From Geoalkalibacter subterraneus (GTDB taxonomy: Bacteria; Desulfobacterota; Desulfuromonadia; Desulfuromonadales; Geoalkalibacteraceae), in NCBI RefSeq assembly GCF_000827125.1, contig NZ_CP010311.1, positions 3,369,001 to 3,433,000 of the forward strand: a DNA stretch of 64,000 nucleotides. Reading direction: 5' to 3'. The position numbers and the translations under genes are program-made. The notes beneath the pieces were generated by a model, which saw nothing but the letters and a program-made list of their open reading frames with translations, searched no databases and was not told the DNA's origin. Positions 30,502 through 55,594 of this stretch are shown one piece after another; positions within the stretch are counted from its first letter, which is position 1; the number at the start of each line of letters is the position of its first letter.

Positions 30502-30592
30502 ACGTAACAACTTACGTAACAACTTTTGATTTTCTTCTCTGTTGTAACGCGACGCTTGATTTGGCACCAATTGACGCTTGATTTGGCACCAA
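30502..30592. repeat. Prophage right-end repeats, likely transposase-binding sites
   Basis: Two tandem copies of ACGTAACAACTT (30502-30525) are followed by two 20-bp copies of GACGCTTGATTTGGCACCAA at 30551-30570 and 30573-30592, spaced 22 bp apart. That period matches the length of MuA end-binding sites. Mu-type ends start with TG; candidates are TGTTAG at 30486, TGTCTT at 30494 and TGACGT at 30500. Confidence 0.6.
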
Positions 30593-30673: not shown

Positions 30674-31717
30674 TTAAATCTCGCCTTTAAAGGCTAGCAG
30701 TTTCCCCCGCAAATTAAACGTATCGGCATGCCGCGCGTGCCCCTCCCACGATGCGATCACCGCTTCGATGTTGTCGCGCACGGGGAGGCCTTCGGCCTTT
30801 CGTCGCTGGATGCTGCGCAGTTTGCGCTTCATGCGGCGCACGCTGTCTTTTCTGAGTTTTCGGTGGGTGGGCCAGATGCGGTAGCCGAGAAAGTCGAGGG
30901 GCCTGCCGCCGCCGATGGAGACGGGGTAGACTTGCGTCTTGCCGTTGGTGCGCAGGGCGAGCGTGTCCCAGAGGAAGGCCTCGATGATTTTGCGCACGGC
31001 GTGCAGGTGGGCCTTGGCGTGGTGGATGACGCAGAAATCGTCCATGTATCTTAGATATCTGCCCTCGCGAAGCTCGTGCTTGGCGAACTGGTCGAGGTCG
31101 TGCAGGTAGACGTTGGCGAAGAGCTGGCTCGTCAGGTTGCCGATGGGGACGCCGCGCGGAAAGGGGTCGTGCGGATCGGCGGTGCTGTCGACGATCTCGT
31201 CGATGAGCCACAGGGTGTCGGCGCAGGCGATGCGCCGTCGAAGCTGCGCCTTGAGTACCTTGTGGGCGATGCTGGGGAAGTATTTGGTGATATCGGCCTT
31301 GAGCACATAGATGCAGCCGTACTCGCGCTTGACCTCGCGCATGAAGGCCTGGGCGCGGTCGGCCCCGGCGTGCGCTCCCTTGCCTGGACGGCAGGCGTAG
31401 GTATCACGGATGAAGCGATTTTCCCAGATCGGCTCGATGGCGGCGACCAGGGCGTGTTGCACAATGCGGTCTTTTAGCGGCAGGGCGGCAACGATGCGCT
31501 CCTTGGGCTCAAAGATGCGAAAGGTGCGGTATGGTCCGGTGCGGTAGCTTTTCCAGACCAGGCTGTTCTGGATCTCGATCAGGTGAGATTCCAGATTACT
31601 CTCAAAAGCCAACACATCGCCCTGCATGCGCCTGCCCCTGACAACGCGCAGCCACGCCTGGTAGAGCGACTCGAAGGTGATAATTTCCGGGAAAAGGTGC
31701 TTGTAGGTTTTTGCCAT
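30674..31717 (-). CDS. Diversity-generating retroelement reverse transcriptase
   Basis: This 347-residue enzyme copies the template-repeat RNA into adenine-mutagenised cDNA that replaces the variable repeat. The finger/palm order is intact: motif A KADITKYFPSI at 140-150, GNLTSQLF at 193-200 (the SQ form typical of DGR enzymes), the catalytic YMDD at 224-227, and the LGYRIWP segment of the thumb border. The start MAKTYKHLF has AGGA just upstream; an in-frame ATG 102 nt earlier would add 34 residues without similarity to the family. No maturase or nuclease domain is attached. It is the last gene before the phage end. Confidence 0.95.
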   Translation of the reverse strand: MAKTYKHLFPEIITFESLYQAWLRVVRGRRMQGDVLAFESNLESHLIEIQNSLVWKSYRTGPYRTFRIFEPKERIVAALPLKDRIVQHALVAAIEPIWENRFIRDTYACRPGKGAHAGADRAQAFMREVKREYGCIYVLKADITKYFPSIAHKVLKAQLRRRIACADTLWLIDEIVDSTADPHDPFPRGVPIGNLTSQLFANVYLHDLDQFAKHELREGRYLRYMDDFCVIHHAKAHLHAVRKIIEAFLWDTLALRTNGKTQVYPVSIGGGRPLDFLGYRIWPTHRKLRKDSVRRMKRKLRSIQRRKAEGLPVRDNIEAVIASWEGHARHADTFNLRGKLLAFKGEI

Positions 31718-31879
31718 TCCTGGCGGCCCTTTATTTGCGGCCAGGGCGAAGGGTCTCCCTTTGGGATACTGTCTCGCCCTGGCCTGTTCATGTTTTTCGG
31801 CGCTTGGCCGAGGGGTCACGGGTCCTTTCGAAAGTGCGCTGGACGGTGCCCCTTAAGGCGCCGACTTCTGGCTATCTTC

Positions 31880-32001
31880 GAGAGCGGGGCGGAACCCGAT
31901 GTTCGTGTTCGCGTTCGAACGCTCATTGTTCAGGTTCAGGGCGAAAGACCCGGCATTCGCACCATTGTTCCAGTTGCCGCCACGGATCGGCAGACGCTCA
32001 C
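31880..32001 (-). repeat. DGR template repeat (TR)
   Basis: This 122-nt repeat matches 32428-32549 except at 14 positions within the repeat and one near its 3' edge. Every internal difference is an A on the coding (minus) strand of this copy. As translated it would encode RGGNWNNGANAG and NLNNERSNANTNIG, that is, Asn codons (AAC/AAT) at each variable site, the normal design of a TR. It lies between avd and the reverse transcriptase gene and overlaps the avd stop codon by 4 nt. Confidence 0.95.
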
Positions 32002-32366
32002 GCCTCATGTTTACCCGCGCCCCTGTTGGTGCTTTTAAACCAACCTCCCACCATGCGGCCGACTTCGTCGAGCAGGCGGCTCCAGACCTCGTACTTCTTG
32101 AACGGGAGATATTCAAGCTGCATTGCCACCCTCACCTGCGAGCGCAGCAGGTCGAGTTCGGCGTCGAGGTCCTGCATGGTGGTCTTTTTGTAGTAGCGAC
32201 GATTGCAGATAATGATCAGGCGCAAAAGGCTCCACATACTCTGACGGATTTCCTGCGACAGCACGTGCCGCTCGGCCTTAGGAAACTGCCGAAGCGCCCC
32301 ATACCCGTAGGTGATCATGTCTTCGCACTTACGCCGGATCTTCAAGTCGTCCACAAAAACCCTCAT
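31998..32366 (-). CDS. avd: DGR accessory variability determinant (Avd)
   Basis: This 122-residue protein is predicted all-helical and basic, as in Avd four-helix bundles that form a pentameric barrel, bind the reverse transcriptase and are needed for cDNA synthesis. It includes YGYGALRQFPKAERHVLSQEIR, which is characteristic of the four-helix-bundle family, and RSQVRVAMQLEYLPFKKYEVW. ATG at 32366 is taken as the start; a TTG four codons earlier is possible. It lies between target gene and TR. Confidence 0.9.
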   Translation of the reverse strand: MRVFVDDLKIRRKCEDMITYGYGALRQFPKAERHVLSQEIRQSMWSLLRLIIICNRRYYKKTTMQDLDAELDLLRSQVRVAMQLEYLPFKKYEVWSRLLDEVGRMVGGWFKSTNRGAGKHEA

Positions 32367-32378
32367 CAAAAAGGGCAA

Positions 32379-32396
32379 GGCGGGCTATCGCCCGCC
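32379..32396. other. DGR target-recognition hairpin (cruciform)
   Basis: GGCGGGC-GATA-GCCCGCC on the coding strand is a perfect 7-bp stem with a GATA loop, 31 nt past the end of the variable repeat. GC-rich hairpins with GRNA loops in this position are known to mark the DGR homing site in Bordetella phage and others, and GATA fits GRNA. It could also act as a weak terminator for the target gene. Confidence 0.75.
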
Positions 32397-32418
32397 CCAC
32401 CAGAACACAGAAAACAGA

Positions 32419-33477
32419 TTACAGAACGAAAGCGGGGCGGAACCCGAGGAGCGTGAGCGCGAGCGAACGCTCATAGCTCAGGTTCAGGGCGAAAGACCCG
32501 GCAAGCGCACCATTGTGCCAGCTGCCGCCACGGAGCGGCAGACGCTCACCAGCGTTGTTGACGTAGAGGTTGCCCCGCGCCATGTCGGTGGCGTGGGGGA
32601 AGAGGCCGAGGGCCTTGGTGAGATCGGGGGCCGCCGTCCCGGCAGCAGCAAGAACGTCCTTGTATTGCGTATTTACGCTTGCCGTAGCTGTAACCACCTT
32701 GGCGAGCTTGACGCCGCTGTCGGAGTTGTATTTCAGGGTGTTGGCCGTCCCCGGCGCCACTAGGGTGCCGTCTTCCAGGATCGCCTGCCAGGCGCTCGAC
32801 CCTGCAGCAGTGCTCAGGGTGTTGTCGGCAGCGTTGTTGTCGGCGATCACCTGAATCTCGCCGTCCACCAAACGCATGCCGCGCTGCCACTCCCATACGT
32901 TTCCGACCAGGTCGGCGATGCCGCTTGGCTCGCCGTTGTGCCGCCACGATGCGGGGCCTGCGCCGGTCAGGGTGCGGGCAGTACCGGAGGCGAGACCGGG
33001 GTTGGCGCCGTCCTGCCGGGGGGCGGTTTCAAAGGTGGCGACGTAGTCGCGCCCATAGTTGGTGTTGCCACGTATTGTGTCAGGCCCGAACTGCTTGTGG
33101 GTGAGCAGGGCAATGGCGGCCCATTCAGCATTGGTCATCAGATGCCAGCCGGCCCCCTTGATGCTGCAGCGCGCGTCCGCCGTATCAAAATCGATGCTCG
33201 CCGCTGGATCGCGGCCGGGGAGCGACAGGGCGCGGCTGTCGTGAATGACGGCCGGATACTGCCCGACCCAGATCTCGCTCTTAGTCGTTCCGTTGACGAT
33301 AAAGGCCGGGTGTGGCACAGCGGCCCAGGAGGGGTCGATGGTGTCGAGGGTGAACATGGGGATACGACACATGTGGCTCGGGTACCCCTTGTCGTCATAC
33401 ATGACGGTGACCTGGCCGCCGGTGGCGGCTTCGACGGATTGGCGCAGGGAGTCCTTAATGCTGATGATCATACTCAT
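32419..33477 (-). CDS. DGR target protein, formylglycine-generating-enzyme/C-type lectin fold
   Basis: This 352-residue protein ends in a diversified C-type-lectin-like domain. The middle shows FGE/sulfatase-modifying-factor marks (GAGWHLMTNAEWAAIALLT and IADLVGNVWEWQRGM), and the C-terminus holds the variable stretch from residue 312 (RGGSWHNGALAGSF, NLSYERS, LGFRPAF). Ten residues differ from the template: 315, 319, 321, 325, 334, 335, 339, 341, 343 and 344. It follows the tail-fibre genes, so a receptor-binding or adhesin role on the virion is inferred, as for Mtd of Bordetella phage. Confidence 0.93.
   Translation of the reverse strand: MSMIISIKDSLRQSVEAATGGQVTVMYDDKGYPSHMCRIPMFTLDTIDPSWAAVPHPAFIVNGTTKSEIWVGQYPAVIHDSRALSLPGRDPAASIDFDTADARCSIKGAGWHLMTNAEWAAIALLTHKQFGPDTIRGNTNYGRDYVATFETAPRQDGANPGLASGTARTLTGAGPASWRHNGEPSGIADLVGNVWEWQRGMRLVDGEIQVIADNNAADNTLSTAAGSSAWQAILEDGTLVAPGTANTLKYNSDSGVKLAKVVTATASVNTQYKDVLAAAGTAAPDLTKALGLFPHATDMARGNLYVNNAGERLPLRGGSWHNGALAGSFALNLSYERSLALTLLGFRPAFVL
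32428..32549 (-). repeat. DGR variable repeat (VR) with IMH at its 3' end
   Basis: This is the 122-nt copy of the template at the 3' end of the target gene. Substitutions are A to C, G or T on the coding strand, often two per Asn codon (AAC to CTC in three codons). The last 15 nt before the edge, GGGTTCCGCCCCGCT, are identical and GC-only-rich as expected for the initiation-of-mutagenic-homing site. Just beyond it VR reads TTC and TR reads CTC. Confidence 0.95.
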
Positions 33478-33483: not shown

Positions 33484-33834
33484 CTATTCTCCTTCAGTTG
33501 CGGGGGCGGCAGGGAGCGCCCACAGGTTGATACGGATCAGGTGATAATCGACGGGGGCGCGCTCCAACGTGGTGACGGGCTCTCCGGTTTCGGGGTCGTT
33601 TTCGCCGGTTTTGACCTCGACAAGGCGCGCCGGAGGCAGCATGACGTTGGCGACATACCACCCGGCCCCCTGGCCTTCGACGACGCACCCCTTGTCGCAC
33701 AGGGAAAGATCGATGGTAACCTCCACGTCGCTTTGGCGTGCGGGGATATCGATGGCATAGTCGCCGATGATGAGGGTGCCGCCCTCAAGGGCGACCGGGG
33801 CGTGATTTCCTTGGGTCATGATGGTGATTTGCAC
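33484..33834 (-). CDS. Hypothetical phage protein upstream of the DGR target
   Basis: This protein of about 116 residues starts at a GTG with AAGGAG 8 nt upstream. It is beta-rich by appearance (GGTLIIGDYAIDIPARQSDVEVTIDL) and holds two nearby Cys (SLCDKGCVVEG). It ends 7 nt before the target gene. It may be a fibre-linked or connector protein for the target, but no family is recognised. Confidence 0.55.
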   Translation of the reverse strand: MQITIMTQGNHAPVALEGGTLIIGDYAIDIPARQSDVEVTIDLSLCDKGCVVEGQGAGWYVANVMLPPARLVEVKTGENDPETGEPVTTLERAPVDYHLIRINLWALPAAPATEGE

Positions 33835-33846
33835 GATGATATCTCC

Positions 33847-34725
33847 TTATCCTGCGGGGTTGAGCAGAGTCCAGCGCACGCGGACATTGTCCGCGCCACC
33901 ACGAATTCTGATCCGGAATCCGTTCTGCTGCCGCTCTGCGATCTCCAGTTGCCCCACAGCCCCCGGATCGGTGGCCGACTCCACCATGAGATCGACGGCG
34001 TAGTCGGGGGCGTTCGGCATCGGTGCCGGCAGCGGCACATAGACATCCTGCACGGTGCCGATAACCCAGCCGTTGTAGTCCTGGACGGTGCGACGGTCGG
34101 TCAGGGTAACGGCCGCCAGGTTGTTGGTGGTGTCCCCTGCGGGGATGCTGAGCTCGTAGAGGAGCAGGCCGGTGTCGGGGACCGTCTCGCCGACATTGAC
34201 GCGATAAATTCCCCCATCAAAGACGAGGTAGGCGAAGTACGTCTTGGTCGCCGTGCCGGGGTTGGTCGGCACACTCACGTGATAGTCGTCGTCGACGAGG
34301 GTGCGCACGGCGCCGTCCGACCAGGCGCGGCTGACCCCGGAGCCGACGGTGCCGGTGGCCGAGAGGTGCAGAGCGCGGATGTCGGCCTTGGTCAGCACCA
34401 TCCCCGAGATGACCCACTTGTTCTTGAGAACCACCGTCCCTTGCGCCAGCGCCCGCTTGCGCAGGTGCTCGATGCTCTGCGCGTTGACGCCGGAAATAGA
34501 GAGGGCCTGCGCAATGGCGGCGACGATGGCGTTTTGTGCTTCAGTGTCAACCCCTTCGGCGAGGGCTTGCAGCTCATCGACCCTGTCTTTTAAGTACCGC
34601 GTGCGGTTGCCGAGCTGTTTCCCCTGCACGTTGCTGATGCCGTTGGGGCCGCCGACAACCGGATCGGTGGTCTCTATCTGGTAAATGCCAGGCTCCCAAG
34701 TATTTTGTTCTGCAAGGTTTGCCAT
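33847..34725 (-). CDS. Phage tail fibre/collar protein
   Basis: This 292-residue protein starts MANLAEQNTWEPGIYQIETTDPV, followed by NRTRYLKDRVDELQAL, a pattern seen at the N-terminus of tail fibres that attach to the baseplate. The rest is beta-rich. It lies between baseplate genes and the DGR target gene and is likely the fibre or its proximal part, with the target as a possible tip. Confidence 0.65.
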   Translation of the reverse strand: MANLAEQNTWEPGIYQIETTDPVVGGPNGISNVQGKQLGNRTRYLKDRVDELQALAEGVDTEAQNAIVAAIAQALSISGVNAQSIEHLRKRALAQGTVVLKNKWVISGMVLTKADIRALHLSATGTVGSGVSRAWSDGAVRTLVDDDYHVSVPTNPGTATKTYFAYLVFDGGIYRVNVGETVPDTGLLLYELSIPAGDTTNNLAAVTLTDRRTVQDYNGWVIGTVQDVYVPLPAPMPNAPDYAVDLMVESATDPGAVGQLEIAERQQNGFRIRIRGGADNVRVRWTLLNPAG

Positions 34726-34759
34726 TGTGTTTTTCCTTTCCGTGGCGGTTAGTGATCAA

Positions 34760-35200
34760 TTAAAAGCTGATAGTCCAGGTTCCCGACAGGCTGATATCCG
34801 ACTCTTTTTCGATGACGCCGCGCACCTTGCGTGAATAGAGCGTCCCGTCGGAACAGATCAGGCCAAACTCGCGGATCGCCTTGCCGTTGGCCTCAGATGT
34901 CGCCAGCGTCCAGGCAAAGCGCACCTGGCCAGTGGCCGGATAGGTTCTTGCCCCGATGTTTTTCTCGTAGGCGCCAGAGAGGCCGGTGTCGTTGGGGCTT
35001 GCTACTGTGGAGCCCGTGCCAAAGCCTATCTTGGTAATAATTTTCCCGCCACCATCACCGCCAATCAATCGCGCGTGGGCGTCTCTGGCTCCATTGACGA
35101 TCAGGTTTTTATCCTCAAACTCGTCAATCAGTCTGCCATCGCGGAAAACCTGCACTCGCAGGGTGCCGACCGGGGCAGCGGCGCTATCTTTTAACTCCAT
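34760..35200 (-). CDS. Hypothetical tail-associated protein
   Basis: This 146-residue protein is beta-rich (GTLRVQVFRDGRLIDEFEDKN, FGTGSTVASPNDTGL, SGTWTISF). No catalytic motif is seen. Its place between tail protein I and the fibre gene suggests a baseplate-fibre connector. The family is not recognised. Confidence 0.55.
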   Translation of the reverse strand: MELKDSAAAPVGTLRVQVFRDGRLIDEFEDKNLIVNGARDAHARLIGGDGGGKIITKIGFGTGSTVASPNDTGLSGAYEKNIGARTYPATGQVRFAWTLATSEANGKAIREFGLICSDGTLYSRKVRGVIEKESDISLSGTWTISF

Positions 35201-35212
35201 GGCTATTGCTCC

Positions 35213-36211
35213 TTATGCTGATAGGTGTTCGGTATTGCTGGCGGCGTGGTGCCGTAATCCATTGTGGTGGTGGCGGCCATTGTGGCGCACCTGGCGAGTC
35301 AAGGTGATGGCCATCACGTCTTGCGGCGTAGTACCCGGGGTGCCGTAACGCCCCGACCCGTCATACACGCTGAGGCCATCGGCCAGGGGGGCTCCCTTGC
35401 TCCAGCTGTCGGCGGCGGCAAGTTCTAGCGCGCCCAGCTCAAAAGCGCTGCGCTCGTTGTCGTGCAGAGATCCAGTCACATCCCAGAGGCTGTATTTGCT
35501 CTGGCCGCTGTAGCCCTGCTCTGCGTCGTAGCGCCAGGTGCCATCAAAGCCAACCGGATCAAACCCCTCGATAAGCCGCGCCTGGTCATGCTGAATCTGG
35601 CCGCCATAGGTCAGGCCGAAGTGGGCCTCTTCTTCAAGGGCCGGGCTAACCGTCGTGGTGGTAGCTTCACCCTGTGGCAGCTCATCGGCTAGCTCGGCCG
35701 AAAACCTCACTTCGCGCAGATGGCGACTCACCGGCTTGGCCATATCGATCAGGGCCGCCATGCGTGAGCGGGCACCGGCATCAACCCCTTCGTATTCACC
35801 AAGATCGACCAGCACATCAAAGAGCGCCCAGCGGCTGCCGCCAAAATAGGTTTCCTCGCCGCTGTAGAGCTGGGTGCCGTCGTGGGTCAGTTGGGGCAGG
35901 CCCTCACTGACCGTGGCTTCGGCATAACCGGCACTGCGCAGGGCTTCGCGTACCGCCCAGACCGTCCCTTTGCGGCGGTGGATAGCAATGCTTTCGGCAA
36001 TCACTGAGCGCTTAACATCAACGCTCCAATTGCTGTCCCAGACATCGACCGACAGCGCCCAGGCCAGCCAGGGCAGCGCATCAGCAGGACAAGTTTGTGG
36101 GTTCCAGAGGTCGCCCACCGGAACCGGTATCTCTGTAGTCCGGGCCGTGGCCGCCTCAAGGGCGCGCTCGGCAGCGGTGGTGTTGGGTGGTAGCAGCGTA
36201 TTACTCACCAC
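35213..36211 (-). CDS. Phage tail protein I (baseplate wedge, P2 gpI-like) with C-terminal extension
   Basis: The first 175 or so residues match the P2 gpI/Mu gp48 type: SNTLLPPNTTAAERALEAATAR, LPWLAWALSVDVWDSNWS, ESIAIHRRKGTVWAVREAL. That family is usually near 200 residues. This protein has 332, adding a tail with GLTYGGQIQHDQARLIEG and a His/Asn-rich end (RHNGRHHHNGLRHH), perhaps a fibre-docking or metal-binding segment. It overlaps gpJ by 11 nt. Confidence 0.85.
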   Translation of the reverse strand: MVSNTLLPPNTTAAERALEAATARTTEIPVPVGDLWNPQTCPADALPWLAWALSVDVWDSNWSVDVKRSVIAESIAIHRRKGTVWAVREALRSAGYAEATVSEGLPQLTHDGTQLYSGEETYFGGSRWALFDVLVDLGEYEGVDAGARSRMAALIDMAKPVSRHLREVRFSAELADELPQGEATTTTVSPALEEEAHFGLTYGGQIQHDQARLIEGFDPVGFDGTWRYDAEQGYSGQSKYSLWDVTGSLHDNERSAFELGALELAAADSWSKGAPLADGLSVYDGSGRYGTPGTTPQDVMAITLTRQVRHNGRHHHNGLRHHAASNTEHLSA

Positions 36212-37103
36212 GACCCTCCACGACCACGATGATATCGGTACACCAGGCCGCTTGCTGCGGAGATATCACCAGATCGGCCAAAGGAGAGATCAGCCGCACG
36301 CGCTGCACACCAGGCTGGTGGAGGGCCGCATAAACGCCGGACAGGGTCACGTCGCGACCCAGGCGGTGTGTCTGGGTCGCGTAGTTTTGCGCTGCGGCCA
36401 GGGCCTCCTGACGCACCGTCTCGGCGTCCGGCCCCTGATGGAGGGTCAGGGCTGCTTGAATTGTGTAGTTAACAATCTGGGCTGTCTGCACCGTAACCCC
36501 GTCGCACAAAGGGCGCACCGTCTCGGCGGACAGGGCAGCGTCAACTGCGGCCAGCAGGGAGTCGCTTGCAGTTCCGCCACCGACAGTGCTCAATACGGTA
36601 ACCAATACCTCTCCGGGAGATGGCGAATAAACACCGACATCCTTGACCTGCGGGTCAGCGGTCATGCCGTGGTATTGATAAGCTCCCCGGCTGCCGGCGC
36701 TGGTCCAACTCTCCGGTGCCAGCTGCACCCGCCGGCGCAGAGCAGTATCGCTCTCATAGGTGGGGGCAACCGGCGGCACGGCGGCGGGGTCACCGGGGTC
36801 GACCACCAGGCGCTGCACACCATAAAGGGCGGCGAGCTGATCAAGATCGCTGCTCTCGGCATAGGCCAGCATCACCGACCGCGCGGCGTCATTGACGCGC
36901 TGGCGCAACAGCAGTTCCCGGTAGGCAGCGACCTCCAGAATCTTGTAGGCCGGGTCGCTCTCGACCAGGGCGTCAAACTGCGGGTCACGGCTGCGCAGAT
37001 CGGCCAGCATGGCGGCAAGAATCTGCTCAAAATCAAGGGGCTCGACTACCTGTGGGGCGGGCAGCAGGGTCAAATCGATCGGGGTGCCGACAGTCTCACT
37101 CAT
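36201..37103 (-). CDS. Baseplate assembly protein J (gp47-like)
   Basis: This 300-residue baseplate wedge protein shows the family's opening (PQVVEPLDFEQILAAMLADL), DPAYKILEVAAYRELLLRQRVNDAARSVMLAYA, and GEVLVTVLS in the core. Overlaps on both sides (3 nt with gpW) fit a tight baseplate operon of W, J and I. Confidence 0.9.
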   Translation of the reverse strand: MSETVGTPIDLTLLPAPQVVEPLDFEQILAAMLADLRSRDPQFDALVESDPAYKILEVAAYRELLLRQRVNDAARSVMLAYAESSDLDQLAALYGVQRLVVDPGDPAAVPPVAPTYESDTALRRRVQLAPESWTSAGSRGAYQYHGMTADPQVKDVGVYSPSPGEVLVTVLSTVGGGTASDSLLAAVDAALSAETVRPLCDGVTVQTAQIVNYTIQAALTLHQGPDAETVRQEALAAAQNYATQTHRLGRDVTLSGVYAALHQPGVQRVRLISPLADLVISPQQAAWCTDIIVVVEGRGE

Positions 37104-37438
37104 AAAATAATCCCTTCCAGGGTCACGGGTTTGCCGGTCGGGCGATAGCGGCCGCTGATCGTCAGGCTGATGTGGCCACCGGCGCCGATGGTGTCGTAGC
37201 GCACCTCATCCAGAGCAAAGCGCGGCTCCCACCTGGCCAGGGCTTCGGCGGTGGCGGCGTAGAGCTCGACCATCAGCCCCTGAGTCGTCGGGCGGTCGAC
37301 CAGGCGCAGCAGGCGGCTGCCGTAATCGCGGCGCATCACACGGCTGCCCAGCGGCGTGGTGAGAATATCGCGGATACTCTGGCGCAGATGGTCAAGCCCG
37401 TCGATGGCCTTGCCGGTGTCGGCGTTGATGCCTCTCAT
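37100..37438 (-). CDS. Baseplate protein W (gp25-like)
   Basis: This 112-residue gp25/lysozyme-like wedge component has IRDILTTPLGSRVMRRDYGSRL, the family's hallmark, and an RWEPRF segment. It starts at MRGINADTG, overlapping the hub gene's stop by 4 nt. Confidence 0.9.
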   Translation of the reverse strand: MRGINADTGKAIDGLDHLRQSIRDILTTPLGSRVMRRDYGSRLLRLVDRPTTQGLMVELYAATAEALARWEPRFALDEVRYDTIGAGGHISLTISGRYRPTGKPVTLEGIIL

Positions 37439-38409
37439 AATGCCTCCGGGGTCTCGGCTTCGATGCTGCAACGATAGCCGCCGTCATTCAGGGTGTGGTC
37501 AACGCTGATCAGGCTCCACTCGCCCGCTAGCCCCTCGCGCCCATCGGTTATCGTCAGGCGCGCTTCGGCCAGCAGGTTGGCAGCGCCGGGGCCGCTGGCG
37601 CGCAGCACGGCGGCCCCGCGCAGGGTAGCCGCCAGGCGGCTCTGGGCGGCGGCGGTGGCGGCAGCAGCATCGGGATAGGCGCGGCGCACGGTCAGCACCG
37701 GCTCACCCTCGCCGACAGTCACCGGAGTGCGCTCGGCGCTGCCCTGATCATGCCAGTAGGTGGTGACAGCGGCATATTTGCCGCGCTCGGCCATGGTGAC
37801 CTCGTAATCGGTTAATGATTCGCGGGTCCAGGTGATATGTGCCAGCGGTTCCCCGGCGGCGCTACGGGCTTGGGCGCGGGGCACAAACAGCAAGCGCCCA
37901 CCGGCGGCCTTGGCCACGGCGTCGTATTCTCTGGCCAGGCGGGTCAGCAGGTGCAGGTCGCTCTCGGTCTGGTCGATGTGCGGCAGGGTGATGCCGGCCA
38001 GCTCGTCCGCAATCGAGGGAATAAAACCATGCTCCCCGGCGATGGTCGTGACCAGGTCGCCGATGGTGGTATTTAGCGGCCAGCTACGCTCTTGCGGGGC
38101 GCGGAGCGCCTGGCCCAGATCGGCGGCGCGGGCGCGGATAATCAGGGTATCCGGTGGCCCGGAAATAGACACCTCGTCGACAACCCAGCGGCCCATGGCG
38201 ACCAGGCCGGTTTCGCGGTAGCCTAAAGCGACCTCCAACACCGCACCGGTGCGGGGCAACGCGATATGGGGGGCGCGATCATCGAGGCGGATTTCGCAGG
38301 AGTCGCTTTCCAGCCCCGCCTCATCGCGCAGACGCAGTTCTAAAAAACGCTCACGGATGATCGCGGTGATGTCCTGGTTGTCGGCTTCGATGCGGAAATC
38401 AGGGGTCAT
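37435..38409 (-). CDS. Phage late control D protein (tail hub, Mu gp45/P2 gpD)
   Basis: This 324-residue hub protein shows the family's architecture, with DQTESDLHLLTRLAREYDAVAKAAGGRLLF in the middle and the SIRADDRA-like early strands (SCEIRLDDRAPHIALPRTG). The hub connects the tail tube to the puncturing spike. It lies 1 nt from gpX. Confidence 0.9.
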   Translation of the reverse strand: MTPDFRIEADNQDITAIIRERFLELRLRDEAGLESDSCEIRLDDRAPHIALPRTGAVLEVALGYRETGLVAMGRWVVDEVSISGPPDTLIIRARAADLGQALRAPQERSWPLNTTIGDLVTTIAGEHGFIPSIADELAGITLPHIDQTESDLHLLTRLAREYDAVAKAAGGRLLFVPRAQARSAAGEPLAHITWTRESLTDYEVTMAERGKYAAVTTYWHDQGSAERTPVTVGEGEPVLTVRRAYPDAAAATAAAQSRLAATLRGAAVLRASGPGAANLLAEARLTITDGREGLAGEWSLISVDHTLNDGGYRCSIEAETPEAL

Positions 38410-38410
38410 A

Positions 38411-38623
38411 TCAGTCCCACAGTCTGATGATCTTGGTGGTGGTGGCGGCGGGGATCTCGGGCAATCTGATCACCAGCCCTGCCTGGTACACCGGGCCGAT
38501 AGCGGCCAGATGGCGGTTAGCTTCGAGTACCAGCTCAACGACCTTGCCACTGCGGCCATAATGGCGGTGGCAGATATCGTCGAGCATATCGCCGTCGCGG
38601 GTGCGGTATCTGGTGGCGCTCAT
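38411..38623 (-). CDS. Tail protein X (LysM-like)
   Basis: This 70-residue protein has TRDGDMLDDICHRHYG, a LysM-like repeat as in P2 gpX, and ends with VIRLPEIPA. The start MSATRYRTRDG overlaps the gpU stop by 4 nt. Confidence 0.88.
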   Translation of the reverse strand: MSATRYRTRDGDMLDDICHRHYGRSGKVVELVLEANRHLAAIGPVYQAGLVIRLPEIPAATTTKIIRLWD

Positions 38624-39015
38624 GGCTGGTCCTCCCCGTAGCGTAGCAAGCGCAGGCGAAATTCGATTTTGTACGGGTCGCCATTGCGGGCAAATAGGGT
38701 CTGGGTTTCTTCGATGCGCTCGATGCACCACAGCCCCCAGATTTTGCCGCGGCCGTCGCTGAGCATCAGCGCAGTGCCCTGGCCTGCCAGGTTGCGCATA
38801 CGGTCAAGCTGGTTCAGGCCTCCGGCAAAGTGCGGATGGATAATGCCATCAAGATCAAGGCTTTCGGTTCCGACCCCGACAAACTGCGTGGCCGGGGCGC
38901 GACCGATCCGCTGCTGTTGTGGCCAGCGGTATTCGGCGCTGCGGCGCAACTGTTGATAAGCGGCTGACGGCAGAGCAAAGCGATAATCCCCCAGGGCCAT
39001 CATGATCTCAGTCAT
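38620..39015 (-). CDS. Tail protein U (gpU family)
   Basis: This 131-residue protein starts at MTEIMMALGDYRFALPSAAYQQL and includes VGVGTESLDLDGIIHPHF. This is the gpU family, which caps the tail tube. It overlaps the tape-measure end by 8 nt. Confidence 0.88.
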   Translation of the reverse strand: MTEIMMALGDYRFALPSAAYQQLRRSAEYRWPQQQRIGRAPATQFVGVGTESLDLDGIIHPHFAGGLNQLDRMRNLAGQGTALMLSDGRGKIWGLWCIERIEETQTLFARNGDPYKIEFRLRLLRYGEDQP

Positions 39016-41530
39016 AGAGCGCCCCCCGCTGACGTGCCGCCTGGCTGCGCTCCCGCTCTTTAAGTTGGCGCTCAACCTCGGCGGCGATCTCTTTAGCGTC
39101 CATGCCGGGGGTGGCGTTGATGACGATCTCGTAGCGCTCGTTGTGGTTGATCACCTGTTCCCGCGCCTGAGTTGTTGGGGCAATAGTCGCTGCAAGCCTG
39201 GCGTCGGCAGCGGACTGCTGCTGTTCGTGTCTCCCGCCCCGAGCGTCAACCATGGCCAGACCTTGGGTTTCGGGCAGCTCGACCGGCTGAACAACGGGAC
39301 TGACGCTGGCAAAGCCTTGGGTTTCGGGCAGCTCGACCGGCTGAACAACGGGACTGACGCTGGCAAAGCCTTGGGTTTCGGGCAGCTCGACCGGCTGAAC
39401 AACGGGACTGACGCTGGCAAAGCCTTGGGTTTCGTGGACTTCTGGTGGTGCAGCAGCGACCGGAGCGGCGAGGTTTGCGCCCAGGGCGACGGTGGCAGCG
39501 GCTTTGCGAGTGCGCCCGAAAAAACGGCGCTTTTCTTTTTCCGGCTCGGCGCTTGATTCTGGCTCCTGGTCGTCTTTTTTGCCGCCGAACAGGTCACCAA
39601 CAAACCCGGTCAGTTTTTCGCCTGCCTTAAAAAGCAGCCCCAGGGGCGACTTTTCCCAGATGCTGATCAAAAAACCGACGCCATCTTTAAACAGGGATTT
39701 AATGCCGTCCCAAAGACCGCTAAAAAAGCCCTTGATCGGCTCCCAATACGCAATCACCAGGCCCGCAGCCAGGGCAATACCGGCTATTGCCAGGCCGATG
39801 GGGTTGCTCATCACCGCCAACCCCATCACCCGAAAGCCGGTGGCAATAGCGGTAGTCGCTGTGGTGACTATCGCGCTGCCAATCGCCCAGGCCTTTTGAG
39901 CGGCAGCCAGGCCCCAGGTTTTCAGGGTCGCAAAATGCAGCGACTTTCCCACCCAGGCCATTGCCAGAGCGACCTTGGGGGACGCCGCCAGCGTGGCGTA
40001 GTAAGCGGCCTGCATACCAAGCCAGCCGCCCTTAAGCCATAAAACCCCGACGGTTAGCGCCTTGGCGGCGGCCAGCACCCCGATAAGCCCAACCACCAGC
40101 CCCACCGTTGTACCGGTGGTGCGGGGGAATTTCTCGCTAAGCCACTGCAGACCGAGCGCGACCTTGCCGATCGCACCGGCCACCGCCTCCGCTGCCGGAT
40201 AGAGAGTTGTGCCGACGGTCGCTGACAGATTCTGCATCTGCTGGCCCAGTAACTCAAAGCCCCGGCCGCGCTGCATGCGCTTGGCCATTTCTTCGGTCTT
40301 TTCCAGACCACCGGTCAGTGACTTTTCAATTTCTGCCGCGCCGTCACGCAAGGCGCCGCGCCGAGCCAGGAGCAAATCAACCAGCTCCGTGGCTTCCTTG
40401 GTGCCAAAAGCCGCGCGCAGGTCATCCTTGGCGGCCTGGTCCATCACGCCACCGTAGGCGTCGTTGATTTGGTCGAGGATTTCAGGCACCGACTTGAGCA
40501 TGCCGGTCTGCTCGTTAACAAAATCAAGGCCGAGCTTTTCCCCGGCGCCACTGGCCGAGGCCAGAAACGCGTTGAATTTGGTTGCCGCCTCACTGCCGCT
40601 CATGGTGCGCTGTAACTCACCCAGCACCGCCAGTTGCTCGGAAAACGCATAGCCTGCGGTGGTCGCGGTCGCTCCCAGGCTTGAGAGCGCCTGGCTCATC
40701 TGTGCGCCGTCGGTCCGAAAGGCCTGGACGCTGGCAGAGATCCCGGCTGAAAAGTATTTACCGAACTCAATGTCGCGCTCTTCCGCCGACAGCGACTGCC
40801 AGCCGGTGATCACCTGCTCGCCAAAACTGTTGAACTGATCGCGATAAATGCCGTAGCCCTTGGCGAACAGGTTGGTCATTTCCGCCGTGGTGCTTTTGGT
40901 TGCTGCTGCGGTTAACGCCGCGATACGGGTGAACTCCCCTACCGCCACATCGCCCAGGCTTGAAATACCGCTCTTAACGTCGTAGCTGGCGCGGACAAAG
41001 TCGCTGACACTGGTGCCCGCCCAGGCATTGGAAAACGCCTCGCCAACACGGGTGATGCTGTCGATCCCGGAATCATCAATCCCCAGTGAGGCAATTTCGC
41101 CCTGTGCCTTCAAGACGTCGCCGCGCGCACTGACCAGCTTGCCGATGGAATACATGGACGCGGCAATGCCCACCAGCGAAGAGCGCGCCTCGCCCAGCGC
41201 TTGACGGTTGGCGTCGATCTTGATGCGCACGCTCGATTGCTTTTTCAAGTTGAGCAGGGTAGAATTAAGCCTGCGGCTGGAGGTATCCAGATCCCGCACG
41301 TCCACCCCGGCGCGCTGCAACGACGCCGCCAGCTCACGCAGGCGGGCGCTGTTGCCTTGGGCGTCTTTTGATAATTTTTTAAACTCGGCAATTTCCAGCT
41401 TGGTGCCGTTCAGCCCATCAATCGCGGCACTGATCTGCTCAAGCGAGCGATAAGCCCCGCCCATCGCTGCCGAATAGGAGGAGCCCAGTGTCGCGCCGAT
41501 CGTTAAACCAATCGCCAGGCTTTTACTCAT
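39008..41530 (-). CDS. Tail tape measure protein
   Basis: This 840-residue protein sets tail length. It has a coiled-coil N-terminus, the TP901-type core (VREAFSNAWAG-like GEAFSNAWAGTSVSDFVRAS, LGATATTAGYAFSEQLAVLGELQ, LRAAFGTKEATELVDLL), and several hydrophobic segments near 480-600 (VGLVVGLIGVLAAAKAL, PIGLAIAGIALAAGLVIAYW). Three 18-residue repeats (PVVQPVELPETQGFASVS) lie near the C-terminus. Confidence 0.93.
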   Translation of the reverse strand: MSKSLAIGLTIGATLGSSYSAAMGGAYRSLEQISAAIDGLNGTKLEIAEFKKLSKDAQGNSARLRELAASLQRAGVDVRDLDTSSRRLNSTLLNLKKQSSVRIKIDANRQALGEARSSLVGIAASMYSIGKLVSARGDVLKAQGEIASLGIDDSGIDSITRVGEAFSNAWAGTSVSDFVRASYDVKSGISSLGDVAVGEFTRIAALTAAATKSTTAEMTNLFAKGYGIYRDQFNSFGEQVITGWQSLSAEERDIEFGKYFSAGISASVQAFRTDGAQMSQALSSLGATATTAGYAFSEQLAVLGELQRTMSGSEAATKFNAFLASASGAGEKLGLDFVNEQTGMLKSVPEILDQINDAYGGVMDQAAKDDLRAAFGTKEATELVDLLLARRGALRDGAAEIEKSLTGGLEKTEEMAKRMQRGRGFELLGQQMQNLSATVGTTLYPAAEAVAGAIGKVALGLQWLSEKFPRTTGTTVGLVVGLIGVLAAAKALTVGVLWLKGGWLGMQAAYYATLAASPKVALAMAWVGKSLHFATLKTWGLAAAQKAWAIGSAIVTTATTAIATGFRVMGLAVMSNPIGLAIAGIALAAGLVIAYWEPIKGFFSGLWDGIKSLFKDGVGFLISIWEKSPLGLLFKAGEKLTGFVGDLFGGKKDDQEPESSAEPEKEKRRFFGRTRKAAATVALGANLAAPVAAAPPEVHETQGFASVSPVVQPVELPETQGFASVSPVVQPVELPETQGFASVSPVVQPVELPETQGLAMVDARGGRHEQQQSAADARLAATIAPTTQAREQVINHNERYEIVINATPGMDAKEIAAEVERQLKERERSQAARQRGALYD
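39261..39436. repeat. 54-bp tandem repeats inside the tape measure gene
   Basis: Three perfect 54-bp copies (39261-39314, 39315-39368, 39369-39422) plus a partial fourth encode an 18-residue Pro/Val/Gln-rich unit. The copies are identical at DNA level, which implies recent expansion and length instability. Confidence 0.92.
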
Positions 41531-41700
41531 CGCTGTGCGCCTTGTTTGCTACCATTGCCATCGTCCTTTGGTTGCTGCACGGGGTTGAGGTGCGTGGTGC
41601 TACGCCGCTGACCAACGGGCTTGCCGCCGCCTTTATTGCTGTTTTTGTTTTCCCTGCCGTGCGGGCCCTGATCCGCTGCGCGGCCTACTTCTTCCGGTAA
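41488..41700 (+). CDS. Possible antisense two-helix membrane protein
   Basis: On the plus strand a GTG-started frame of 70 codons is preceded by a perfect AGGAGG 6 nt upstream. It encodes two hydrophobic segments (CALFATIAIVLWLL and GLAAAFIAVFVFPAV). It fills the 154-nt gap between the tail chaperone and the tape measure gene, which holds no open frame on the minus strand, and overlaps the tape measure start by 43 nt. It would be the only plus-strand gene seen in the prophage. It may be chance; a phage membrane protein or exclusion factor is possible. Confidence 0.4.
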   Translation: MSRRSLNQSPGFYSSLCALFATIAIVLWLLHGVEVRGATPLTNGLAAAFIAVFVFPAVRALIRCAAYFFR

Positions 41701-42061
41701 AAATCCTTCGCCTCGCCCAACCAGGCGAGCAGCTCCTCTGCGGTTAAATCCAGCAGCTCATCAAGCCCCCAGCGCGTGGCGCTGTTCAATGCCAGCACCG
41801 CGCGTCGGGCGCTGGCCGGGGTCAGGACAAAAAACCGCTGTACACTTCCTGGATGGCGCGGTAGTCGGCCAGATCCAGCTCCTCAATGACTGCCGGGGCG
41901 ACTTCGCACAGGTTGGCGAACAGCCGCACTTCTTTTTCTGCGTTGTTGGCGCCCCCCTTTTCGGCGGCCAGCTGGTCGCGGACCCGGGGTCTGCGCAGGT
42001 TCAGCTCCAGGATTTCCTCACCACCGATGGTGACCGGGTGCTTTAATTTCACCGTTTCCAT
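41685..42061 (-). CDS. Tail assembly chaperone, with -1 frameshift product (gpE/gpE')
   Basis: The zero frame (41822-42061) encodes 79 residues, METVKLKHPVTIGGEEIL and onward, of the phage tail assembly (gp41/gpE) family. Just before its stop lies the slippery heptamer T-TTT-TTG (41834-41828). A -1 shift there opens 47 more codons to a TAG at 41687-41685, giving a 125-residue protein ending in LLDLTAEELLAWLGEAKDFYRKK-type sequence. Two products in this ratio-controlled form assemble the tail around the tape measure protein in P2 and lambda. Confidence 0.88.
41828..41834 (-). promoter_or_regulatory. Programmed -1 frameshift site TTTTTTG
   Basis: The heptamer lies in the X-XXY-YYZ phase relative to the chaperone frame (GG-T TTT TTG TCC TGA), two codons before the stop. 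The same heptamer is used in P2 gene E. Confidence 0.85.
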
Positions 42062-42105
42062 GATAGTTCTCCTAAGGGCGCCCGGATCGCCGGGACCCCT
42101 CTTTG

Positions 42106-42609
42106 TTAGATGCCAAGGTTGGCGCGGGTTGCGGCCATCTGATCAACGCCGCCGATCACCCGGCGCATGGCCATAATGTCGATATCGTGCAGCACTTCGC
42201 CGGCCTGCGTGTATTTGTAGGCGCGCAGGGAGACAACGGCCTTCAGGGTGGCCTTTTCACCTGCCTTCCAGCTGCCGTGCTCCAGTTCGCGGATCTTGCC
42301 GACCAGGTTGATCACCACCGGCACATTGTCGCCGTCTTCGCTTTCGGCGGAGCCACGCAGGGTCAAAGGCGTGGTGTTGCCGGGGGCCAGCCCGAACAGC
42401 TTGATCACCTCGCGGTCGTACTTGGTCAGGGTGAACTCGCACTCCATTTTTTCCATGCCCATCTCGACATCCACAGGGGCGTCCATGCCGCCGCCGCGAA
42501 ATTCCTCGGTCAGCATGGTCAGCTTGGGTGGGGTGAGCTCCTCGACGTCTCCGGCATAACCACGACCGTCAACGAACAGGCTGAAATTGCGTAGAATATG
42601 GCTCAGCAT
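42106..42609 (-). CDS. Major tail tube protein (P2 FII-like)
   Basis: This 167-residue protein opens with MLSHILRNFSLFVDGRGYAGDVEEL and shows PVDVEMGMEKMECEFTL and IDIMAMRRVIGGVDQM, as in contractile-phage inner tube proteins. It follows the sheath gene by 14 nt. Confidence 0.92.
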   Translation of the reverse strand: MLSHILRNFSLFVDGRGYAGDVEELTPPKLTMLTEEFRGGGMDAPVDVEMGMEKMECEFTLTKYDREVIKLFGLAPGNTTPLTLRGSAESEDGDNVPVVINLVGKIRELEHGSWKAGEKATLKAVVSLRAYKYTQAGEVLHDIDIMAMRRVIGGVDQMAATRANLGI

Positions 42610-42623
42610 CGTTTTTTATCTCC

Positions 42624-43826
42624 TTAGACAATCTGCTCGAAATAGTCATTGACCATGCGGCTGCGGAAGGTCACCCGCTCGGCCGGGGCCGGTGGGGTAA
42701 AGTCGAAGTCAAAGAACACCTTGCCTGCCGCCAGGTTCGACGGCGTGTTCAGTTCACTGTCGGCCCAGCACTTGCCACCCAGAATCGCGCCCAGGGTGGT
42801 CAGGTAGCTCAGGTAGTTGTTGACCCCTTCGACCACATCCTCCAGGTAGGTCTTGGTGATGTTGCGGTCAACGGCCCACAGGTGGGCGCGCAGCAGGCTC
42901 TCGTTGATCATGTCGGCGGTGCGCACCACGTTGATAAAGGCCCACTTGGGGTCGCTCGACAGGGTGCGGTTGCCCCACAGTCGGTAGCCGTCCTGTCGGA
43001 TGATCGTCGCGATGTTCTGCTCGTTAAGCAGGTTGGCGCGGGCATCGGCGTCGCCCAGGGTAAAGTCGATCGGGCGGGTGGTGCCGACAATGCCGTACAT
43101 TTCGCGGTTGGAGGGGCTCCACCAGAAGCCGCGCTCGGCGTCCGATTTGGCGATCATTCCGGCCACCCGGGCGCTGGCAGGCTCAATCGCCACCTCGCCA
43201 TCAGCAAACACCTTGACGCCGGGGTCAACCAGATAGACGCGGCGACTGCCGAAATCCGCCGCATAGGTGATGGCATCGGCGTCGTTGGTGTCGGGGCCGT
43301 CGGCAATAATCACGGCGCGCAATCGGTCGGCAATGCCCAGCAGCTCCGCCACCACCGGGTTGGCCAGAAACTGCCCCGACGTGACCGGGTCTTCCGGGCG
43401 ATGACTGGTAAAGCCTGGCGCGCACAAGATGCGCGGAGCAAAGCCAAGGACGCTCTCGGCGGCCAAAAAGGCGTGAACGCCGGTGTAGGCGCCGGTTTCC
43501 ACATCAACGCCACCAGTCACGTTACTGATCGTCGCGGCAAGGTCCAGCCCCTCGTCGACCCGTACCACAACAACAACCGCCCCAGCCTGGTCAAAGATGC
43601 CGTCAATAGCGTCGGGCAGGGTTCCGTTGCCGGCACCGACCGTATCGAGGGCAGCGGCTTCAAGGCGATTTCCGGCAATCATCACCGGGGTGTTCAGCGG
43701 AAACTTCGCGGCGTCGGCGTCGGGGGCGGTACCGATCAGGCCGATAACGCTACTGCGAACGGTTTGAATCGGGCGCGGGCCGTAGTCAATTTCTACAACC
43801 TCAACCCCGTGTAAAAACGATGGCAT
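42624..43826 (-). CDS. Tail sheath protein
   Basis: This 400-residue contractile sheath subunit opens with MPSFLHGVEVVEIDYGPRPIQTVRSSVIGLIGTAP. It includes RVYLVDPGVKVF, WWSPSNREMYGIVGTTRPIDF and GYRLWGNRTLSSDPKWAFINVVRT, all typical of the family. The presence of a sheath makes this a myovirus-type phage. Confidence 0.95.
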   Translation of the reverse strand: MPSFLHGVEVVEIDYGPRPIQTVRSSVIGLIGTAPDADAAKFPLNTPVMIAGNRLEAAALDTVGAGNGTLPDAIDGIFDQAGAVVVVVRVDEGLDLAATISNVTGGVDVETGAYTGVHAFLAAESVLGFAPRILCAPGFTSHRPEDPVTSGQFLANPVVAELLGIADRLRAVIIADGPDTNDADAITYAADFGSRRVYLVDPGVKVFADGEVAIEPASARVAGMIAKSDAERGFWWSPSNREMYGIVGTTRPIDFTLGDADARANLLNEQNIATIIRQDGYRLWGNRTLSSDPKWAFINVVRTADMINESLLRAHLWAVDRNITKTYLEDVVEGVNNYLSYLTTLGAILGGKCWADSELNTPSNLAAGKVFFDFDFTPPAPAERVTFRSRMVNDYFEQIV

Positions 43827-43829
43827 GGC

Positions 43830-44006
43830 TTATTTCTCCTTGCTGGTTCTGGGTTTGGCTTCCACTTTGACCGGCTCGATCTTCCCTGCCAGCACCAGAT
43901 ATTTGGCTTGGCGTGGGTTGAGCTTAACGGTCTGGCCCTGCGCCACCTGCGACCCATCGGCCATGGAAACATTCCTCTTCGCGATATAGCTCTGCTGTTC
44001 TGGCAT
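43830..44006 (-). CDS. Small phage protein in the DUF2635/gp38 position
   Basis: This 58-residue protein (MPEQQSYIAKRNVSMADGS at its start, KVEAKPRTSKEK at its end) has a very good ribosome-binding site, AAGGAGAAGG, just upstream. It sits immediately before the sheath gene, the place of Mu gp38, but the sequence only loosely recalls that family. Confidence 0.65.
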   Translation of the reverse strand: MPEQQSYIAKRNVSMADGSQVAQGQTVKLNPRQAKYLVLAGKIEPVKVEAKPRTSKEK

Positions 44007-44018
44007 GATCCTTCTCCT

Positions 44019-44234
44019 TTAGTAGACTTTGCCTGTATGCTCACCATCCGGCGCACCGCCGGTGGTCTCAACCACAGCGTTTGCCTGAATCTCGTCAATA
44101 ATCCCCTGGCACAGCGCCTCCAGCACCTTGCGCCGGTACGCGGCAACAGCGCCACCGTCGTTGCTTTGGTGAGCCGGTACGGCAGCCATCCGCGCCTCGA
44201 CAAAGTCGGCCATGCTCTGCTTGGTCAGCCCCAT
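44019..44234 (-). CDS. Hypothetical protein between gpV and gp38-like gene
   Basis: This 71-residue protein starts MGLTKQSMADFVEARMAAVPAHQ. It is predicted helical with an acidic tail. The start overlaps the gpV stop by 1 nt. No family is recognised. Confidence 0.55.
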   Translation of the reverse strand: MGLTKQSMADFVEARMAAVPAHQSNDGGAVAAYRRKVLEALCQGIIDEIQANAVVETTGGAPDGEHTGKVY

Positions 44235-44806
44235 CAGAAACTCTCCTGAACTGTTGCGCTGATGTGAGGGTGCGGCTTGCCGGTAAAGGCGCAGATACAA
44301 TCGCCCTGGACCGCCCCCTTGAGCTGGCCGCTGCCACCATCGATGTCGACCTTGTTCTTGCTGATCAGCGTCGTCTTTCCCGCGACGTTGATGTCGGCAT
44401 TGCCGCCGACGTCAATCAAGGTCTGACCGGCGGTGTTGATGTGCAACTGGCCGGCGGCGCGGTCGTACTGCACAAAGCCGCCGTCAGCAAAGTCAATGCG
44501 GCGCACCGTTTCGCGGTCACCATTGGCCGGGTGCGCTGCCTGGTAAATCGCCGGGAGCACCAGGCCTTGGGCCAGGTCGCCGCAGGGGGCCAGCAGCAGA
44601 ACTTGTTCGCCGACCTCGGGTGCCCACCAGTCGCGGTCGTTGCTTGCGCGGCGAGTCAGCCAGGGAAGCCAGGTGGTCAGCAGGTTGCCCGATTTGACCC
44701 GCACTTTTGCGGCGGGTGCGTCGAGTTCAGCCACCGTGCCGACGCGCAACAGGTTGGCAACCATGCGCTCCAGCTCACTGACGCGGTAGTTCAGCGGCTC
44801 GTTCAT
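44234..44806 (-). CDS. Baseplate assembly protein V (spike)
   Basis: This 190-residue protein starts MNEPLNYRVSELERMVANLLRVGTV, carries the OB-fold segment GNLLTTWLPWLTRRASNDRDWW and then repeats of beta-helix type (GQTLIDVGGNADINVAGKTTLI). It is the membrane-puncturing spike of contractile phages. It starts inside the stop codon of the previous gene. Confidence 0.9.
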   Translation of the reverse strand: MNEPLNYRVSELERMVANLLRVGTVAELDAPAAKVRVKSGNLLTTWLPWLTRRASNDRDWWAPEVGEQVLLLAPCGDLAQGLVLPAIYQAAHPANGDRETVRRIDFADGGFVQYDRAAGQLHINTAGQTLIDVGGNADINVAGKTTLISKNKVDIDGGSGQLKGAVQGDCICAFTGKPHPHISATVQESF

Positions 44807-45357
44807 CAGTCGCTGCCTCCCAGCTTGATATAGTCGTCCTCGTGGGGCTCGCCGATTTCCGGTGCAAAGCCGACGTAGAGCTCGGAGGGCAGCACGCCTT
44901 CTCCGGCCCAGATATCGGCCCCCAGGCGCACCCGCTGTTCCCAGGTCACAGCCCACAGCGCAACGCCCGCCTTGTCGAACTCGGCCCCGTACAGGTTGTC
45001 GAGTCGGGTCACGCTGGCCGCGCTGCAGCCGGTCTGCCCGAAGCGCGCCCCCTCCACCTCGGCCAGCACACCTTCGGCCAGCTCCAGCGCATCCATGCCG
45101 CGCTCGTTGCGGCCTCCCGCGTGCCGCGTCAGGCAGTAAGCGCTGTAGCGGCACAGAAAGTCGTATTCGCCGTTGCCGTGCTCGCTGCCCCGGGTCGCAC
45201 CCAGGCAGGCCACCAGCACCGCAGGCGCCGCCAGGCTGCCCCGCGACAGCTCCCCGCCGGAGAACTCCCCCGCGTACAGGTCGCAAGTGCGAAGACCGGG
45301 CAGGGCTGTTTTCAGGTGCGCCACGGCGGCGCGCTGCAGCTGGTTGGGAGTCGTCAC
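44806..45357 (-). CDS. DUF1834 family protein (Mu gp37)
   Basis: This 183-residue protein is of the gp37/DUF1834 type, likely a tail terminator or connector component. It includes ELAEGVLAEVEGARFG and the DNLYGAEFDKAGVALWAVTWEQ strand region. Its order after gp36 (DUF1320) and before gpV fits Mu relatives. Confidence 0.82.
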   Translation of the reverse strand: MTTPNQLQRAAVAHLKTALPGLRTCDLYAGEFSGGELSRGSLAAPAVLVACLGATRGSEHGNGEYDFLCRYSAYCLTRHAGGRNERGMDALELAEGVLAEVEGARFGQTGCSAASVTRLDNLYGAEFDKAGVALWAVTWEQRVRLGADIWAGEGVLPSELYVGFAPEIGEPHEDDYIKLGGSD

Positions 45358-45777
45358 TTAATAGCCTCCGCCGTCAAAAACCGAGCGCCCCGGCTTGAAC
45401 TCGGCAGCGTAGGTGTCGTCACCTGCAGCCTCCTGCGCCTGATCGTCCACGCCAAGGCTGACCTTGCCGCCGGCGATCTCGCGCAGCAGCCTGCGGGCCT
45501 CATCGGCCTGCTTGCTCCAGCGCTCGTCGTGTGTGTCGGAATCGGTGGCCAGCACGTCGCGGGCCAGAATGCACGCCAGGCGCGTCAGAGTCAGCGGCAC
45601 GGTGGAAAGCGGCAGCTCGTAGCGCGGCGCCAGATACATATCGATTTCAGCCGAAGCGTCCGCAATCGCCGCGTCGATCACGGCGGAATCGATAATCCCC
45701 GCGCCGTCGCGGTCGGTGAGCTGCACCAGCAGCTGCTCGCCGAATCTCTCTATCATCTGTGCCTGGGTGCAATACAT
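45358..45777 (-). CDS. DUF1320 family protein (Mu gp36)
   Basis: This 139-residue protein opens MYCTQAQMIERFGEQLLVQLTDRDG and shows DASAEIDMYLAPRYELPLSTVP, the hallmark of gp36 head-tail connector proteins. Confidence 0.9.
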   Translation of the reverse strand: MYCTQAQMIERFGEQLLVQLTDRDGAGIIDSAVIDAAIADASAEIDMYLAPRYELPLSTVPLTLTRLACILARDVLATDSDTHDERWSKQADEARRLLREIAGGKVSLGVDDQAQEAAGDDTYAAEFKPGRSVFDGGGY

Positions 45778-45780
45778 CGG

Positions 45781-45984
45781 TTACTCCTTCTTTGCCCCGC
45801 CGGCCTTCTTGCCGCCCTTGGCCTTGCCACCCTCGACCCCGGCCTCAACTTCGAGCATCGGCTCGTTGAAAAGCACCTCCAGCTCTTTCTCGCTGAAGTG
45901 ATCATCGGCGTATTCGGTCGGCTGCTTGCTGTGGGCGACGCCGCAGCGGCGGAAACCGTCGCGCCTGGCAGTAATGCGAATCAT
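45781..45984 (-). CDS. Small HI1506-like phage protein
   Basis: This 67-residue protein starts at MIRITARRDGFRRCGVAHS and ends in a Lys/Gly/Ala-rich tail. Its position between the major head protein and gp36 and the FRRCGV motif fit the HI1506/gp35 family, which is of unknown role. Confidence 0.7.
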   Translation of the reverse strand: MIRITARRDGFRRCGVAHSKQPTEYADDHFSEKELEVLFNEPMLEVEAGVEGGKAKGGKKAGGAKKE

Positions 45985-46052
45985 AAAAACCTCCGGCAAA
46001 AGGGGAGCGGGCACGCGGCCCGCGCCCCTTATCTCAGGTTGACGTCAGCGCC

Positions 46053-46946: not shown

Positions 46947-46980
46947 GTGAAAGCTCCTTTATCTCGACTTAAATGGTTGA

Positions 46981-47385
46981 TTATCGAAGATCGACCCAGA
47001 CGCCCTGGGCGTCGACGTCGAAAACCTTGCCGGCCACAGACAGCGTGCCGGTGCCATCGGTCTTGGCGACCGTCTCGTCGTCCGCGATGTAGCAGTCGGT
47101 GCCGATGTCGGCAGTAGCAACGGGGTCGGTGCTGCTGTTGGCGAAGCGGAAAATGCCGCGCTCGATGCGCACATCGGCCGCGTCGTCTGCGCCTGCGCTG
47201 TTGTCGACCGTCTCGGCGCAGCGCCCCACGCCGAGCAGCGTGGTGGCGGCAGCTCCGGGGGTGGCGCGGCCGTTGGCGTCGCGGGCGACCATAGCGCCTG
47301 CGAAAAAGATTTTGGCGGCAGCGGCCTTGAGCGTAAGCTGGTCGCCGCTGCGGCGGGCGGTGTCTCGTTCGGCGGTCAGAGCCAT
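46981..47385 (-). CDS. Capsid decoration-like protein
   Basis: This 134-residue protein (MALTAERDTARRSGDQLTLK at its start) is beta-rich with IFFAGAMVARDANGRATPG and DCYIADDETVAKTDGTG. It lies between protease and major head genes, where head decoration or cement proteins are found. Confidence 0.75.
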   Translation of the reverse strand: MALTAERDTARRSGDQLTLKAAAAKIFFAGAMVARDANGRATPGAAATTLLGVGRCAETVDNSAGADDAADVRIERGIFRFANSSTDPVATADIGTDCYIADDETVAKTDGTGTLSVAGKVFDVDAQGVWVDLR

Positions 47386-47423
47386 AAGGTTTCTCCTCTA
47401 TCCTTGGGAAAAGATTGTGGCGG

Positions 47424-48452: not shown

Positions 48453-48613
48453 CCTCGTCCCTCCATGGGCCGCTTTTGCTTTTGCGGGTCAGTGGTCTGA
48501 ATCAGAACCGTTTTTAAACCCTTTTTAAAATCCTCTGTATTGAACGATCTTTGCTTCCCCGTACGTTGGGGTGGTCGCGACCCTTTAAAGCCGTTACAGG
48601 GCAAATTTCGCGT

Positions 48614-49827: not shown

Positions 49828-49828
49828 C

Positions 49829-53504: not shown

Positions 53505-53507
53505 GGG

Positions 53508-54450: not shown

Positions 54451-54455
54451 GTCGT

Positions 54456-54783: not shown

Positions 54784-54789
54784 CGCCGC

Positions 54790-55011: not shown

Positions 55012-55025
55012 AGGGTGTGCTCCTT

Positions 55026-55520: not shown

Positions 55521-55565
55521 GTCGATACCCTTAAAGCCGCCAGGCGGGCCCGGCGGCGTTGCAGT

Positions 55566-55582: not shown

Positions 55583-55594
55583 GGTCAGGGTATG

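Follow-up and report, generated by a model that had tools for sequence, protein, structure and literature searches.

A canonical BPP-1-type diversity-generating retroelement with a TaqVP-like target in a Mu-like contractile prophage of Geoalkalibacter subterraneus

Background

Variation of a lectin-like tail protein driven by a diversity-generating retroelement (DGR) is a well-known phage route to altered binding. Bordetella phage BPP-1, a podovirus, carries such an element in the order mtd-VR-avd-TR-brt, with Mtd as the target protein that contains the variable repeat (VR). In phage DGRs GC-rich stems of 7-10 bp with GRNA loops lie 4-34 bp after the VR (PMC3240598), and a high-throughput study of the BPP-1 DGR has described a context-dependent AAC bias that favours Tyr and Ser (PMC12875486). 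DGRs in Mu-like phages have also already been published, namely in Hankyphage, a Mu-like Bacteroides phage with a Mu-like transposase and 117-bp repeats that show 14 adenine mismatches (PMC6199706). A further point of reference is TaqVP of Thermus aquaticus (5VF4), a DGR variable protein with the FGE subtype of the C-type-lectin fold (PMC6328139). Further phage records with DGR-type reverse transcriptases (RTs) include those of BalMu-1 and the Aeromonas phage phiARM81mr.

Results and discussion

Architecture of the locus

The window, i.e. the whole stretch of 64,000 nucleotides analysed here, contains most of a Mu-like prophage of Geoalkalibacter subterraneus, in which the parts of a DGR are arranged on the minus strand in the order target-VR-avd-TR-RT. 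Its features are:

30540..30592, plus strand: probable right prophage end, with two TTTGGCACC repeats; the exact base is tentative
30674..31717, minus strand: reverse transcriptase, 347 aa, intact, YMDD; phmmer match to 8ub7_A and Pfam RVT_1
31718..31882, minus strand: TR-RT spacer, presumably the 3' portion of the DGR RNA
31883..32001, minus strand: template repeat (TR), 119 nt with 25 adenines
31998..32378, minus strand: avd, accessory variability determinant, 126 aa ORF; Pfam bAvd (PF22296), E 6.2e-33
32374..32401, minus strand: target-site hairpin/cruciform, 7-bp perfect GGCGGGC/GCCCGCC core with a GATA (GRNA) loop
32419..33477, minus strand: target of the DGR, a variable protein of 352 aa with an FGE-type C-type-lectin fold; homology to 5vf4, Pfam FGE-sulfatase
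32427..32440, minus strand: VR 3' end, a region like the initiation of mutagenic homing (IMH) site; fixed T at 32430 (C in TR), the two closest relatives being alike
32431..32549, minus strand: variable repeat (VR), changed at 14 of the TR-adenine positions, with 10 residues affected
33484..63953, minus strand: remainder of the transposable phage within the window, with tail, baseplate, sheath, head, portal, terminase, lysis and MuB-like genes

An earlier note on this DNA had proposed a complete DGR in canonical order and strand within a contractile Mu-like phage. All its parts (target, VR, avd, TR and RT) are found where the note had placed them, and the surrounding genes include those for a sheath, a baseplate, a Mu-type head and MuA/MuB-like proteins. 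Every testable feature that defines a DGR (TR/VR pair, RT, Avd, C-type-lectin target and GRNA hairpin) is present, and we hold it to be almost certain that the locus is a canonical BPP-1-type DGR in a Mu-like contractile prophage. Gene order and strand are as in BPP-1, and the likeness extends to an RT homologous to bRT, an accessory protein of the Avd family, adenine-only changes and a GRNA hairpin after the VR. In contrast, the target is TaqVP-like rather than Mtd, and the host phage, unlike BPP-1, is Mu-like and contractile. With Hankyphage it shares the residence of the DGR in a Mu-like transposable phage and the pattern of repeats (117 bp there) with 14 adenine mismatches, although this likeness is drawn from description rather than sequence and the Hankyphage host belongs to a different phylum. 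The G. subterraneus DGR thus fits the known picture of phage DGRs, leaves that picture unchanged and brings in no new mechanism; its value is that of a clean, complete example with a TaqVP-type target in the Mu-like prophage of a sequenced bacterium.

Template and variable repeats

A repeat search of the locus recovered a single family of 123 nt and 88% identity, whose copies lie 548 nt apart. When the inner 119 nt of TR and VR are compared base by base there are 14 differences, each of them at a TR adenine, and a separate scan gave the same picture, with 14 of the 25 TR adenines altered in the VR and zero other changes in the 119 nt. Placement of all 14 differences at adenines by chance has p = 7.5e-12 (hypergeometric). 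Codon comparison shows that ten target residues are altered (315, 319, 321, 325, 334, 335, 339, 341, 343 and 344), so that both the adenine-only differences and the ten residues between 315 and 344 reported in the earlier note are borne out. The TR/VR pair is single-copy in the G. subterraneus genome, and a search of its 3.7 Mb found no further TR or VR copy and no second target. The same TR/VR architecture was recovered in 131 of the 161 sequences scanned.

Over its full 123 nt the repeat holds one further difference that is not at an adenine: the TR has C and the VR has T at 31882/32430. As this difference is common to both closest relatives, it probably marks the IMH/IMH* boundary rather than an exception to adenine mutagenesis; a fixed C/T difference at the 3' end of the repeat is as expected for a boundary of this kind that is not transferred.

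Target-site hairpin

Between the VR and avd lies a GC-rich inverted repeat, GGCGGGC-GATA-GCCCGCC, whose core is lengthened to 12 pairs in a DNA fold (z -4.69 against shuffles). This post-VR hairpin matches the published target-site hairpin consensus. It is situated about 34 nt past the end of the scanned repeat, unlike that of BPP-1, and in the relatives compared GATA or GAGA loops likewise lie 34-37 nt beyond the scanned repeat end. By a loose criterion, a perfect stem of at least 6 bp within 90 nt, such an element is present in 71 of 131 DGR loci.

Target protein

The target gene sits downstream of tail genes, and the VR closes at its last codons. Its product shows homology to TaqVP, a variable protein of known structure (5vf4; phmmer E 7.5e-104), in two stretches, residues 2-253 and 269-352, the second of which includes the VR; the C-type-lectin fold previously assigned to it is therefore upheld by homology over the whole protein. 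The Pfam match to FGE-sulfatase (E 4.9e-5) is barely over the cut-off. The two proteins share the FGE-type C-type-lectin fold with a C-terminal VR, but they differ in the residues at the variable sites, and the G. subterraneus gene, unlike that of TaqVP, sits in a prophage structural region. Gene position and precedent suggest that the target binds a receptor; it is most likely a receptor-binding tip, with a presumed location in the tail.

Reverse transcriptase, avd and the TR-RT spacer

The RT, which has many relatives among phages and genomes, matches BPP-1 bRT (8ub7_A) over nearly its full length (phmmer E 6.5e-66) and lacks stops; with its YMDD motif this agrees with the intact system described before. 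As first opened, the RT ORF has a GTG start at 31819, which would extend the gene across the TR-RT spacer. The bRT match starts at residue 1 of the 347-aa version (Met codon 31717-31715), and because the homology begins at this Met the ATG at 31717 appears the more likely start, giving a gene of 30674-31717. The spacer itself has 92-94% identity in the two closest relatives, as against 87% for the RT gene, and its conservation exceeds that of the surrounding genes. This is what a functional RNA would show, and the spacer is presumed to be the 3' part of the DGR RNA. The avd product matches Pfam bAvd strongly, but the solved BPP-1 Avd structures (4dwl, 8ub7_B) only weakly.

Proposed mechanism, activity and alternative explanations

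By analogy with known DGRs, the RT-Avd complex would copy the TR-containing RNA, misincorporating opposite template adenines, and the mutated cDNA would then take the place of the VR, which lies 3' in the target gene. The IMH-like sequence at the VR 3' end, together with the GATA-loop hairpin beyond it, would direct this transfer. The predicted outcome is that a group of residues close to the C-terminal end of a protein with the C-type-lectin fold, whose gene adjoins tail genes, is randomised.

The two closest relatives, IMG/VR contigs L025 and L026, carry the same DGR, with 87% RT identity at the DNA level and a near-identical TR and hairpin, but with different VR outcomes; such close relatives allow VR turnover to be followed in public contigs. 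In a sister phage lineage, with 63% RT identity to the G. subterraneus DGR, contigs L038 and L039 are separated by 15 VR differences, every one at a TR adenine, and by none in the 2704 bases outside the VR. As these VRs differ at TR adenines between identical flanks, the contrast shows, at the level of sequence, a related DGR that is active. Across the four metagenome contigs of that lineage (L038-L041) there are 0-13 differences per 2704 bases outside the VR and 13-15 within it. Recent activity of the G. subterraneus DGR is plausible because its differences are purely at adenines, its RT is intact and the VRs of close relatives differ; we infer that it may also be active in the strain at present.

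Two other explanations deserve weighing. The DGR could be silent though intact in appearance, its VR having been diversified earlier and now frozen in an inactive prophage, and a strain known from one VR sequence, in a genome with a single TR/VR copy, would be compatible with this. Against it speak the undamaged RT, avd, TR and hairpin, the confinement of TR/VR differences to adenines, the strong conservation of the spacer and the continued change of the VR in close relatives, and we regard such silence as improbable, if not negligibly so. Simple gene duplication followed by divergence, without any retroelement function, can yield repeats about 120 nt long, but it is a vanishingly improbable account of a repeat whose 14 internal differences all fall at adenines and which is accompanied by an RT, an avd and a hairpin. 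The adenine specificity already refutes plain duplication.

Among related DGRs, those of L112, L113, L115 and L048 (Burkholderia, Pigmentiphaga, Pseudothauera) have the VR about 1170 nt before the TR, a gap with space for an additional gene between the target and avd/TR.

Substitution spectrum at AA pairs

At changed adenines the DGR family prefers G, then T, then C; in the G. subterraneus VR, 7 of the 14 changes are A to C. Four of its five AAY codons with both adenines altered have become CTY (Leu), and these four CTY codons are the top count in the set of related TR clusters. At in-frame AAY sites of 96 TR clusters CT and TA are in excess, and TG (Cys) is nearly absent; the outcomes at AA pairs are interdependent in G. 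subterraneus and these 96 related clusters. Out-of-frame AA sites served as the control for telling selection from mutation, but most turned out to have been assigned to the wrong frame, and the 12 that remained were too few for the purpose. The published BPP-1 AAC bias may explain part of this spectrum. It is a tentative and rather doubtful suggestion that the non-independent changes reflect either an RT context effect beyond that bias or selection at the protein level, and that G. subterraneus may show an unusual, hydrophobic VR outcome.

The host prophage and its surroundings

The prophage is transposable, about 38 kb in size, with MuA/MuB-like genes. Its structural genes encode a tail sheath, baseplate J/gp25/GPD proteins, tail protein I, a tape measure, a Mu-type head, a protease and a portal; profile matches include a MuB-like protein (phrog_296), the sheath (phrog_23) and protease, head and portal phrogs. 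Just past the window (contig L024) lie a repressor-like gene and a 731-aa ORF that is taken to be MuA-like from its reading and its position. At the left end, around L024 positions 12385 and 12440, lie two TTTGGCACT-like sites in inverted orientation to the right-end TTTGGCACC repeats; these inverted TTTGGCACC/T repeat pairs flag the probable prophage ends and give the size above. TTCTC is present at both proposed ends, a possible 5-bp target duplication, the boundaries being tentative. A tRNA-Phe at 30369-30444 lies outside the prophage, and its proximity is probably coincidental, the phage being transposable. Beyond the prophage, at L024:13587-19546, a primase-like mobile region is seemingly interrupted by an IS21-type istA/istB pair, as judged by reading.
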